Below, piece after piece: positions 43,321 through 49,287 of a stretch of DNA of 58,268 nucleotides. The notes beneath the pieces are model-generated. The model did not search any database, was not told the origin of the DNA, and saw nothing but the letters and a program-made list of their open reading frames with translations. Location: positions 1-58,268 of the forward strand of contig JAFGOI010000002.1 in the NCBI GenBank assembly GCA_016926555.1, written 5' to 3'. A program made the position numbers and the translations under genes. Each line of letters begins with the position of its first letter. Position 1 is the stretch's first letter. Source of the DNA: Patescibacteria group bacterium. GTDB lineage: Bacteria; Patescibacteriota; WWE3; UBA101185; UBA10185.

Positions 43321-43599
43321 TCACAAACCTATATACACATTCACCTCATCAAGTATTGCACTTAGAAGTCCCTTATCTATATCGAACTTCTTCTCGGACT
43401 CTCTACCTTTATCAATAATCACATAATCCTTAATAAGGGTGATGAAATTTGTGTGCTGAGGAAGTACGTCAAACTCACCTTGTTCATTTACAGAAGTCAC
43501 TGTGGCAGCTGTATCTTCATACATAGTCTTTATCCTTGTTTTAATAAGTACCTTTATAGGTGTTGCTTCTTTTCCTAATACCTTTACCGTATTTTCCAT
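43321..43599 (-). CDS. F-type ATPase epsilon subunit-like (beta-domain only)
   Basis: TVTSVNEQGEFDVLPQHTNFITLI; position after beta. Confidence 0.8.
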   Translation of the reverse strand: MENTVKVLGKEATPIKVLIKTRIKTMYEDTAATVTSVNEQGEFDVLPQHTNFITLIKDYVIIDKGRESEKKFDIDKGLLSAILDEVNVYIGL

Positions 43600-43609
43600 A
43601 ATTGTACTA

Positions 43610-44995
43610 CTAAGATTGCTGCTGAGCACTGCGCGTTTCTGCAGCCTCCCCTATAAACATGAATTTATCCTCGGGAACGTCATCATATTTTCCCTCTAGT
43701 ATCTGGTCTACATCTTCAACAGTTTTATCGACAGTAACATACACACCAGGTCTACCAGTTTGACTTGTTGTTACAAAAAAGCTTTGCGTCATATAATTTC
43801 TCAGTTTCAAAGATCGCTTGTATAAAGTTCTATCTTCTTCTGCCAATTCTGCCTCCCCAACTAAAGCAACTATTCTTTCCAAGGATTGAGCTCTCTTTAA
43901 TAAACTTTGCGCTTTCATATAAACATTATAATGCTTCATAGATACCACATCTGGATTAAGAGCACTCGATGTGGAAGCTAAAATATCCACTGCCGGATAC
44001 CTACCTTGTTTATATACATCTCTTGACAATACTATTCCAGAGTCGAGATAAGTGAACACTGTTTGCACAGCTTGATCCAATATGTCATCAGCTGGAACAT
44101 ATATTGCTTCAATAGAAGTTATGGCAGCAACCGATGTGGAGACTAACCTTTCATGTACCGCAGCCACCTCGGACGCTAGGGTGGCTTGATACCCATCCTC
44201 TGAAGGAATTGTATTCATTAGCAGAGATAACTCATTGCCTGCTTGAGCAAAACGGAAGATATTATCAACGAAAAATAATACATTCTTTTGCATGACATCT
44301 CTAAAATCTTCAGCTACTGCAGTTGCGCCATATGCTGTCAAAAATCTCATGGCCGGAGAGGATCCCATGGAACCAAATACAAGGGATACGTTATTGAGTA
44401 CTCCCTTTTCCATCAGTTCAAAAAACAATTCGTGGCCCTCACGAGTACGCTCTCCTACTCCACAAAAGACAGAAGCGTTATTTTCGGGATCCCTGTTTAT
44501 AATGTTATGTAATACCTCACTCAATAAAACTGTTTTCCCCACACCCGAACCACCAAATAATCCGGTCTTACCGCCTTTAATAAGCGGGGCAAAGAAATCG
44601 AGAACTTTAATCCCTGTCTCCAAGACTTCCTGAGTATATTTTATTGATTCATATTTTGGGGCATCTCTGAATATCGTCGACATTCGCTGATAATTTATAT
44701 TACCCAACCCATCCACTGGACTACCGAACATATCCATTACCCTACCAAGCACCTCGGGACCAACCGGTATCATCAGTGTCTCCTTAGTCCTATTTACAAC
44801 ATCCCCTCTACTCACTCTCGCTACATCTGATAGCGCAATACAGAAAAATGAAGTGATACTTGAAGATCTAACTACTAGTAGCCTTATAGACGGATCTTTT
44901 TCCAATACTAGTATTTCTTCTACTTCCGGTTTGTCCTCAAGTAGAAACTCCACTTCTACGACATAGTTTTTTATTGTTAATACTTTACCGGGCAT
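43610..44995 (-). CDS. F-type ATPase beta subunit-like
   Basis: [50 protein letters not shown]. Confidence 0.93.
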
Positions 44996-44996
44996 A

Positions 44997-45863
44997 TTAA
45001 CTCCACATTTTGGCACTCGAAAGAATATCTCTTTGTTTTGAGTCATTCTCTCTATGCTTCTCTTTAATTAACACAAATTTCTGCTTACCTATTTCGTCTT
45101 CTATATTACCAGCTGCTCTTTCTAAACTGACCATTCGTGAAGCGAATTTACTTAAACTAGATTCGTATATTATATGTTCAAATACCGTTCCAATTATTTG
45201 TGTCTCAAAAAATTTTACCAGCTCTTCCATACTTGGTTCAAAAAGAACTTTTATTCTTTCCTCCTCTTTTTCTTTAGTCTCTATTTCTTGTTGTATTGCT
45301 AGAGCATCTCCTGTTAAAAACGTCTTTTTTGGATCCTGTATTAATACTGTTCTAAACAACCCATGATATACAATTATATTTGTAAATGTTGTTATGTATT
45401 CTAAAATTTTCTTTAACTTAGTATCATCCACTCCAGAATCTGGAAACTCGAAAAACCTATACTCTTTTTTTATTCCCACACCATCGTATAACGCTTTCCC
45501 TATTTTCCCTATTATTACTACTTCTGTATCTGTATTCCGTATATTATCTGCAAATAACCAAAATGTCTTTTCTACGATATCTCCATATAATCCTGTGTTC
45601 GATGCCAGCAATACCGAGACGTTTCCCTCTTTCTTGCCCATATACCTGTTAAGTCTTTGTTTTTCGAATTCATTTGCTTCGTAATATGATATGTGTACCC
45701 TTTTATATAATTTACTTAGACCGGACAGAAATTCCCGATTTTGTAGCACGTATTTCTTGACTTTTCTCATTCTGATTGCTGCTATTTCTTGATATGTCGT
45801 CATAAGGTCGCCGAGCTCGTGCAAAGTTAAAATATCTTCCTGTATTTTCTTAATCTCTGACAT
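44997..45863 (-). CDS. F-type ATPase gamma subunit-like (divergent C-terminus)
   Basis: Position between alpha and beta; long N/C-terminal helices; [16 protein letters not shown] resembles gamma C-terminal ASRMxAMxxAxxN. Confidence 0.8.
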
Positions 45864-45866
45864 ACA

Positions 45867-47387: not shown

Positions 47388-47859
47388 CCTTATTCTCCAA
47401 AAAACGACCCTCTAAGACGTTTTCTAGATCCAAGTTAATAAAGTTTCCTTTCCAACTGACATGTACTCCAGCTCCTATTTCCATATTAACTTTTGTTTGT
47501 ATAAAAAAATGCCCAAATGCACTCTTTCTAAACCACTCAAACAACTGTTCAGAAAATTCGTCAGACGCTTCGAAGGGCAACTCAAGCTTAATTACAGGAG
47601 CACTTACTAAATATTGTCGTAACAAGGTTAAGAAGTCTTTGTACTCAGTTAGGTTCCTTATATCGACTCCCGAGCGGTATATAATGTCATCTAATAGCTT
47701 TTTATGCTCACTTATCTGTATTGTTGTCTCATTTTCCCCCTCTGGCTGCCCCACGCTCAGTATTTTAGCGTCGAGTTCACTTAAAAAAGACGCTATCACT
47801 TTAGATGTCTTTAGTGATAGATGTAACAAGTCTTTAATTTCATTATTTAGCACCTCCAT
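47359..47859 (-). CDS. F-type ATPase delta subunit-like
   Basis: Position; C-terminal FFIQTKVNMEIGAGVHVSWKGNFINLDLENVLEG. Confidence 0.65.
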   Translation of the reverse strand: MEVLNNEIKDLLHLSLKTSKVIASFLSELDAKILSVGQPEGENETTIQISEHKKLLDDIIYRSGVDIRNLTEYKDFLTLLRQYLVSAPVIKLELPFEASDEFSEQLFEWFRKSAFGHFFIQTKVNMEIGAGVHVSWKGNFINLDLENVLEGRFLENKDVFEEILRR

Positions 47860-47862
47860 AAT

Positions 47863-48501
47863 TTACACCTCAAACTTGGCACGGGTCTTCGCATCTTCCA
47901 GCAGCCTTAGTACTAATTCCTCATGCTCTTTCATAGGCAATATCCTGCCAAATATGTCGGACATCACTTGAGCCAATATTTTATAAACAGCTCTATCAAT
48001 CTGCGTAATCCTATTGTTCTTATATTCATATAGTTCTTTCTTTATTTCAGCATAGTCAGAATGTACTTGATCATCCACCCTTTTTTGACTCTCTACTGTG
48101 GTTTCCTGAAGTGATTCCTTGAAAACCTCAACCTCAGATGAAATAAGATCAGTATATTTTTTTAACAAGTGCCCCGATACATCTTCTAATGAATGCAGCT
48201 GTTTCTGCGAAATCTGCTCAAGCCTTTCCTGAAGCTTCTTTTTGGTATCGTCATCAAACACTTTGGAATCAGCAATTATTCTAAGGGACTTTAGCCTAGC
48301 TTCATCCAAAATTCTTAGAGCCTTCTCATAGGATTCATCCTCAAGAAAATCTTTTGGTAATTTAGGTAACTTTTTACCAAATCGTCTGCCCTGTTTAGAA
48401 ACATTATTAATCAAAAAAAATAGTAAGGTAATAGAAACGGAAACAATTAAAATTCCAAAAAAATATAGAAATATTTCAGAATAATCGGGCAGTGCTAACA
48501 T
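47863..48501 (-). CDS. F-type ATPase b subunit-like
   Basis: N-terminal TM, long coiled coil, C-terminal KEHEELVLRLLEDAK. Confidence 0.75.
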   Translation of the reverse strand: MLALPDYSEIFLYFFGILIVSVSITLLFFLINNVSKQGRRFGKKLPKLPKDFLEDESYEKALRILDEARLKSLRIIADSKVFDDDTKKKLQERLEQISQKQLHSLEDVSGHLLKKYTDLISSEVEVFKESLQETTVESQKRVDDQVHSDYAEIKKELYEYKNNRITQIDRAVYKILAQVMSDIFGRILPMKEHEELVLRLLEDAKTRAKFEV

Positions 48502-48510
48502 GAGTTTAAT

Positions 48511-49287
48511 TTACAGTATTAATACTAAATAAGCAATTAGTAGTCCCGCTGAAATAATCAAGAAAGTAAGTAGAAAATTAAAAAACACTAACCGCCTTAT
48601 AGATCCTCTTGCCAACGGATTTCTACCAATTGCCTCTATACTCTGATTTGATATTCTACCGAATGTTCTAAACCCAATCAGGAAACTGGCTATCACTATC
48701 AAAGCAGCTAACAGATACCTAAAGGATGTTAAAGGCGAGAGGTATGCCGCATCAAAACCTGATTTCAAAAATTCAAATATGTTACCCCTTAAACCCGCAG
48801 AAGAAATATAATTGGTTTTAATATCTATATATACAGGTATTGTATCTCCATCTCCCATATCCTCTAAGGCTACCCCTAACACATGACCATTTGATAACGC
48901 TTTTACACCGTAACCAGGCTTACCTGAACTTGTTATATAATCCCCCTTCTTTATTTCTCCGTTTTCATTAGTAACCTTAACATATGCTTCCCCAGAGGAT
49001 AGCACTAATTTCATATCTTCTGTATTAACTACTTCTTCAAACGCCGCTATCGGATGTTCAACTATCACTCCAAACATTGTGAGATCATAAGGCTGTTCAC
49101 TTAAGTTATACTCTCCATTTCTGTAACTTACTATATGACCACCCGCCGCTTCCTTATTTTCTATTTTTACTGAAAATGCAATCTCATTATATGAGTAAGT
49201 ACTTCTCCCATAACACAATACAACTACTGCTAGTACTGTCTTCAGCACATATTTACTGTTTTCCCAAACTGTCTTTCCTGTCCGCAT
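48511..49287 (-). CDS. c-subunit-like hairpin fused to signal peptide and exported beta-rich domain; TM2 carboxylate absent
   Basis: C-terminal [71 protein letters not shown]-terminal [15 protein letters not shown] signal then [48 protein letters not shown]. Confidence 0.75.

Follow-up and report, generated by a model that had tools for sequence, protein, structure and literature searches.

In F-type ATPases, ion transport requires the Asp or Glu in the second transmembrane (TM) helix, TM2, of subunit c together with the Arg of subunit a. The polar loop of canonical c docks gamma and epsilon. The Type 3 F1-like X0 ATPase of Mycoplasma (MIB-MIP) is a second F1-type enzyme besides the canonical one, which has no recognised ion path and is linked to the cell surface; its X0 proteins, with 12 and two TM segments, have no known homologues, and it contains no subunit b (PMC12994834). 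The Type 2 or G1-ATPase of Mycoplasma mobile is an F1-type enzyme repurposed for mechanical work on surface proteins, and this gliding motor forms twin-motor chains with GliD and PGK, with no c homologue described (PMC11864180, PMC8406192). Here we analyse an operon at positions 43321–49287 of a contig from a Patescibacteria group bacterium; the whole stretch of 58,268 nucleotides is referred to as the window. The operon encodes an F1 core together with a c-like hairpin, which lacks the ion-binding carboxylate and is fused to a predicted exported domain. Based on sequences and models, we consider that the products of the operon probably form a dedicated F-type motor that hydrolyses ATP, lacks a conventional path for ions and is coupled to a ring or anchor at the surface, and we assign this reading a probability of roughly 0.58.

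The genome to which the window belongs, as contig 12, spans 872 kb and is 92% complete; most of its relatives that bear a name in the GTDB collection are labelled 'candidate division WWE3' (Katanobacteria). The operon consists of seven tightly packed open reading frames (ORFs) on the minus strand, with short gaps or overlaps, in the order c-like fusion, b, delta, alpha, gamma, beta and epsilon, as the original prediction had read them. The c-like fusion (48511–49287, 258 aa) contains a signal peptide, an exported beta-domain, a short helix and a c-subunit-like TM hairpin. In the hairpin (residues 185–257, 48517–48735), TM2 has neither Asp nor Glu, and Phe occupies the canonical ion-site position, 18 residues after the loop proline (Pro+18). 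Across 111 fusion ORFs with 86 distinct TM2 helices, this position is I, L, F, V, A, G or T and never acidic (0/86), whereas it is Glu or Asp in all 17 canonical c subunits. The few acids in the TM2 of relatives sit 6–12 residues past the loop Pro, the deepest being those of the very divergent L253 and L254. We therefore reject the idea that a realignment of TM2 could supply the acidic residue, since none falls at the ion-site position. Meanwhile, an Asn 13 residues past the loop Pro is conserved in most TM2 helices.

Subunit a is absent as well. Searches with PF00119 (subunit a) and PF00137 (subunit c) gave no match in the 872 kb genome, and the same search was positive in control genomes. 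A second canonical atpB/atpE, which the original prediction had proposed to look for, is thus rejected for this genome, and the claimed absence of subunit a extends beyond the locus. The family set comprises 27 genomes of 20 genera, and both profiles are missing from 26 of them, including three single-contig genomes. The only family genome with canonical a and c is G006, where they are located in a separate canonical operon. In this operon (L051:4550–10300, G006:C44), beta is split by a stop into ORFs of 218 and 238 aa and alpha is short, which reflects either decay or a sequencing error. In the class outside the family, three more genomes (G030, G031, G035) have subunit a. A pattern scan of the GTDB species genome set provided 80 further loci, and BLAST with one canonical a as the query found no canonical a near the fusion at any of them. 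No other gene, including multi-TM or translocon-like ones, recurs in the operon in the gene maps of about 80 loci. Two features that define an F1Fo ATP synthase are missing from the operon, the Asp/Glu of TM2 and subunit a, which supplies the Arg. Lacking both, the hairpins would not carry ions in the way that is known. The earlier claim that F1 acts here without conventional ion translocation is partly supported overall, by the intact catalytic residues, the reworked Fo and the lack of subunit a and the carboxylate.

The c-like hairpin can be related to subunit c in several ways. A profile of 21 fusions matches the canonical c subunits of G006 (E = 3e-6) and G035 (4e-5), in the hairpin region only, and hhalign of 69 hairpins against 17 canonical c subunits yields P = 6.7e-9 over 70 gapless columns. 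With a larger fusion profile, the seven best matches among PDB sequences are all c subunits, 4bem first, each individually weak (E 0.005–0.15). In the AlphaFold2 (AF2) model of the fusion, with a predicted local distance difference test (pLDDT) score of 89.9, the hairpin helices span residues 185–222 and 224–257 and overlay c-ring subunits at 1.2–1.7 Å. The profile-profile alignment, the PDB sequence matches and the fold overlay reject a merely superficial likeness, and judged by profiles and model the hairpin is genuinely related to subunit c. The polar-loop signature (GRNP) noted earlier is present, and the GRNPLA loop (residues 221–226, 48610–48627), the putative docking site of gamma and epsilon, is nearly invariant among the fusions. 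For the first helix, TM1, the original prediction stands in part: the canonical Gly pattern is lacking, but the Arg (GFRTFG) is unique to the window sequence, and Ser is usual in relatives.

The hairpin is preceded by the domain that we expect outside the cell. Residues 1–32 (49192–49287) form a hydrophobic N-terminal helix (residues 7–25 in the model), a predicted signal peptide in the alignment, and an AxA-type site lies at its end in many relatives. The beta-domain follows (residues 36–159, 48811–49182). In structure comparisons, this domain is closest to phage capsid-decoration and head-fibre proteins (Pam3, BB1, HFTV1, phi29 gp8.5, XM1) and to phi29 gp12, so that the fold resembles a capsid-decoration protein or the base of the phi29 head fibre. 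Among viral models, it matches phage tail or preneck appendage proteins. Pfam gives weak matches of the exported domain to Peptidase_G2 (2 of 71 members) and XM1 gp53. The same domain is also found within giant surface ORFs of the candidate phyla radiation (CPR). If the signal peptide faces outward and the loop inward, the fusion would have the topology of canonical c. The signal peptide, the known c topology and the model support, as a prediction, the outward-facing orientation that had been claimed for the fused domain.

In contrast to Fo, the F1 core is intact. Subunit alpha (45867–47387, 506 aa) retains both GDRKTGKT and the arginine finger SVTRVG, and subunit beta (43610–45046, 478 aa) retains its catalytic motif; they are accompanied by gamma (44997–45863, 288 aa) and by an epsilon with the beta-sandwich domain only (43321–43629, 102 aa). 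Pfam recognises alpha/beta, gamma (PF00231, 7.8e-19) and epsilon (PF02823, 4.3e-8). The P-loops, the catalytic Glu and Arg and the alpha arginine finger are all in place, as originally described; across 84–88 sequences, neither this finger nor the catalytic Lys, Glu and Arg residues in beta vary. The delta subunit of the window (47359–47859, 166 aa) has no Pfam match itself. It corresponds to OSCP: 44 of 55 family members match PF00213 (best 2e-10), and the best PDB matches of its AF2 model (pLDDT 90.4) are ATP synthase delta/OSCP subunits. The b-like stator (47863–48501, 212 aa) has one N-terminal TM helix and a long coiled coil, and weak profile scores tie it to canonical b. A peripheral stalk of delta and b is present, b on weaker evidence than delta. 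We notice that the reworked alphas are generally shorter at the N-terminus than canonical ones; this comparison did not separate the lineages without delta.

The same fusion without subunit a recurs in relatives, as the original prediction had suggested checking. The contiguous operon is found in the window genome and in 17 others of the family, and the F1 genes, alpha included, follow the fusion at 73 of the 80 scan loci. Scan loci with informative names are all CPR (WWE3, Levy-, Roizman-, Woese-, Davies-, Shapiro-, Ames-, Collier- and Sungbacteria, other Parcubacteria and one Saccharibacteria), so that the reworked operon occurs in WWE3, Microgenomates, Parcubacteria and one Saccharibacteria record. 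An assembly error or a local oddity is rejected by this conservation across families and orders. Surveying 381 Patescibacteria genomes, we found a strong full-length fusion match in 17 outside the class, 13 of which also have canonical a. Canonical and reworked operons are both present in G006, G320, G335, G282, G185, G091, G203, G245, G212 and G327, and the reworked operon therefore appears to do a different job. In the alpha and beta trees, the reworked sequences split from the canonical ones, E. coli included, at support 0.999 and 1.0. The mean beta identity is 42% between reworked and canonical sequences, compared with 66% between canonical CPR and E. coli. The divergent L252–L254 fall outside the rest in a paralogue-rooted alpha/beta tree, which is probably due to long branches. 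On this sequence evidence, given its distribution, its coexistence with the canonical operon and the split of the trees, the reworked operon is an old, separate lineage and not a recent decay product.

Upstream of the fusion, the next gene is a divergent giant ORF (49722–58268, plus strand), as had been claimed. It encodes two MerR-type helix-turn-helix (HTH) domains, one TM segment and a long repeat ectodomain, and is incomplete at the contig end. A giant ORF starting with HTH is divergent to the fusion in 16 of the 19 family loci with upstream sequence. In Sungbacteria and relatives (Parcubacteria), four fusions (L162:7032–8642, L173:6900–8642, L174:2063–3736, L175:1513–3087) carry an extra N-terminal HTH_17-like domain, weakly matched by Pfam in two of the four, and a TM segment. 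This head resembles that of the divergent WWE3 giant proteins. Since fusion variants and giants share it, domain fusion hints at a link between the two proteins, and the giant protein may be part of the machine.

Taken together, we propose the following model for the motor. F1 (alpha3 beta3 gamma epsilon) would dock via gamma and epsilon on the GRNPLA loops of several membrane hairpins, and b and delta would form the peripheral stalk that restrains the F1 head. ATP hydrolysis by F1 would drive the central stalk, which grips the c-like loops. As there is neither subunit a nor a carboxylate and the hairpins would not carry ions, the free energy of ATP would go into mechanical work, either torque or a conformational change. 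The hairpins may hand this work to the fused phage-fibre-like domains outside the cell; together with the giant surface proteins encoded nearby, these domains probably serve to adhere, to contact a host or to move. The parts, their homologies, the absent residues, the conservation, the separate lineage and the coexistence with canonical F1Fo follow from comparisons of sequences and structures, whereas ring formation, rotation, the partner and the purpose are what we infer here. A more specific version, which we hold tentatively and at somewhat below even odds, is that candidate-phyla bacteria widely possess a rotary motor other than the flagellum, which spans the membrane and is driven by ATP. 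In it, F1 would turn a modified c ring, and the outer domains of the ring would make up or carry phage-like fibres, so that structures on the cell surface are rotated.

Several observations weigh against a dedicated motor. The main weaknesses are three. Without subunit a, no known membrane anchor would keep b from turning. The glycine pattern through which TM1 helices pack in canonical c-rings is weak in the fusions, and a ring is therefore not assured. In a sublineage of Woesebacteria and Collierbacteria, the fusion lies directly before alpha, and b and delta are lost (fusion-alpha-gamma-beta-epsilon only at L139, L151, L154, L155, L157, L163, L171 and L238). Searched genome-wide, delta is missing from 6 of the 7 such genomes tested, among them the closed genome G142 and G393–G397; a conventional stator is therefore not always needed. 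The link to the giant protein is strong in WWE3 and weaker elsewhere, as the giant is divergent in 24 of 71 loci of the wider set. In addition, the source genome has a second fusion (G000:C9:1643–2380; L023:1480–2244) with 38% identity and no F1 genes beside it. This copy is divergent from another giant surface ORF, and a similar F1-free copy occurs in G004 (L048). In the Roizmanbacteria-type loci L180, L183 and L185, the fusion adjoins giant surface proteins without F1, and the neighbouring surface protein of L185 has a clear Peptidase_G2 auto-processing domain.

Such F1-free copies beside giant ORFs (L023, L180, L183, L185) would also suit an export or assembly ATPase, which helps to secrete, fold or mount giant trimeric surface fibres on a membrane base plate of fusions, with no continuous rotation outside. 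Giant surface proteins contain the exported domain too, its fold is similar to those of phage fibres and auto-processing domains, and the export ATPases FliI and SctN are relatives of F1. We nevertheless regard this explanation as unlikely, because gamma, epsilon and usually b and delta are kept, that is, a rotor and a stator, and no translocon-like gene recurs in the operon. It is less likely still that ATP hydrolysis is coupled only to reversible conformational changes of the fused domains, with neither a ring nor full rotation. The lack of the canonical TM1 glycine pattern and the sublineage without a stator agree with this possibility, and the same action has been proposed for the Mycoplasma Type 3 F1-like X0 ATPase, MIB-MIP (PMC12994834). 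However, the hairpin fold is close to that of c-ring subunits, and the near-invariant docking loop is expected if gamma and epsilon grip several copies.

On the other hand, a subunit a that escaped recognition might still move ions together with a site other than a carboxylate, and the Asn at Pro+13, kept in most TM2 helices, would be a candidate for this site. We consider this very improbable, given the absence of PF00119 from 26 of 27 family genomes with the single-contig ones included, the canonical position that is never acidic, and the lack of a recurring multi-TM gene in the operon at about 80 loci. The small genomes and the missing subunit a and carboxylate could also suggest an ATP synthase decaying towards loss. 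This is in effect refuted by conservation: catalytic residues, loop and gene order are maintained in WWE3, Microgenomates and Parcubacteria alike, the c-like protein has gained and retained a new domain, and intact canonical operons coexist. The dedicated motor is the reading that we prefer.

On the other side of the operon lies a convergent nusG-rplK-rplA block (41476–43273). Elsewhere in the window, a bacterial alpha-2-macroglobulin-like giant of 2038 aa (31328–39521, minus strand) adjoins a penicillin-binding protein with transglycosylase and transpeptidase domains, and a P-type cation ATPase is encoded at 24870–27389 (plus strand). We speculate that this P-type ATPase could energise the membrane in a genome without a conventional ion-translocating F-ATPase.

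Candidate-phyla bacteria represent a large share of bacterial diversity, and their means of holding and exploiting hosts are mostly unknown. A second F-type ATPase, fused to surface domains, moving no ions by the known mechanism and standing beside a canonical synthase, would amount to a surface machine of a new type and, if true, would re-use the ATP synthase rotor in a striking way. The beta subunit scores above the NCBI atpD cut-off, and automatic annotation or metabolic surveys would therefore call it an ordinary ATP synthase. Surveys that count 'F-type ATP synthase' by alpha or beta genes would overstate ion-coupled ATP synthesis in these bacteria. In the open literature that we searched, a scope outside which subscription papers lay, no earlier description of such an operon was found.

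Compared with the canonical bacterial F1Fo of E. coli and CPR, the reworked operon shares homologues of alpha, beta, gamma, epsilon, delta, b and c, the gene order, the catalytic residues and the c loop. It differs in the missing subunit a and TM2 carboxylate, in the fusion of c to an exported domain and in the separate lineage of alpha and beta. The exported domain resembles phage head-fibre, capsid-decoration and preneck appendage domains in fold, and Peptidase_G2 domains by weak matches; unlike these, it belongs to an operon of a cell and is joined to a membrane hairpin of the c type. Against the NCBIfam families MSC_0618/0619 and glide_MMOB1660/1670, the window alpha/beta score 400.9/570, 278.7/520, 353.7/850 and 373.9/600 (score/cut-off), and against the alt_F1F0 (N-type) families 384.5 (cut-off 750.5) and 407.9 (cut-off 752). 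Membership in the Mycoplasma Type 2/3 or N-ATPase families is rejected by these scores. The Mycoplasma precedent invoked by the original prediction holds in that repurposed F1-like ATPases are real (PMC12994834, PMC11864180), but those papers describe 12-TM and 2-TM membrane proteins and no c homologue. A gene for a 12-TM protein is neither present in the window operon nor recurrent in relatives. The Type 2 enzyme of Mycoplasma mobile resembles our operon as an F1-type ATPase turned to mechanical work at the surface, with no c homologue described there. The Type 3 ATPase, too, is an additional F1 that was repurposed and is linked to the surface of the cell; in the present operon, in contrast, the outer domain sits on a true c homologue, and neither delta nor b has been lost.

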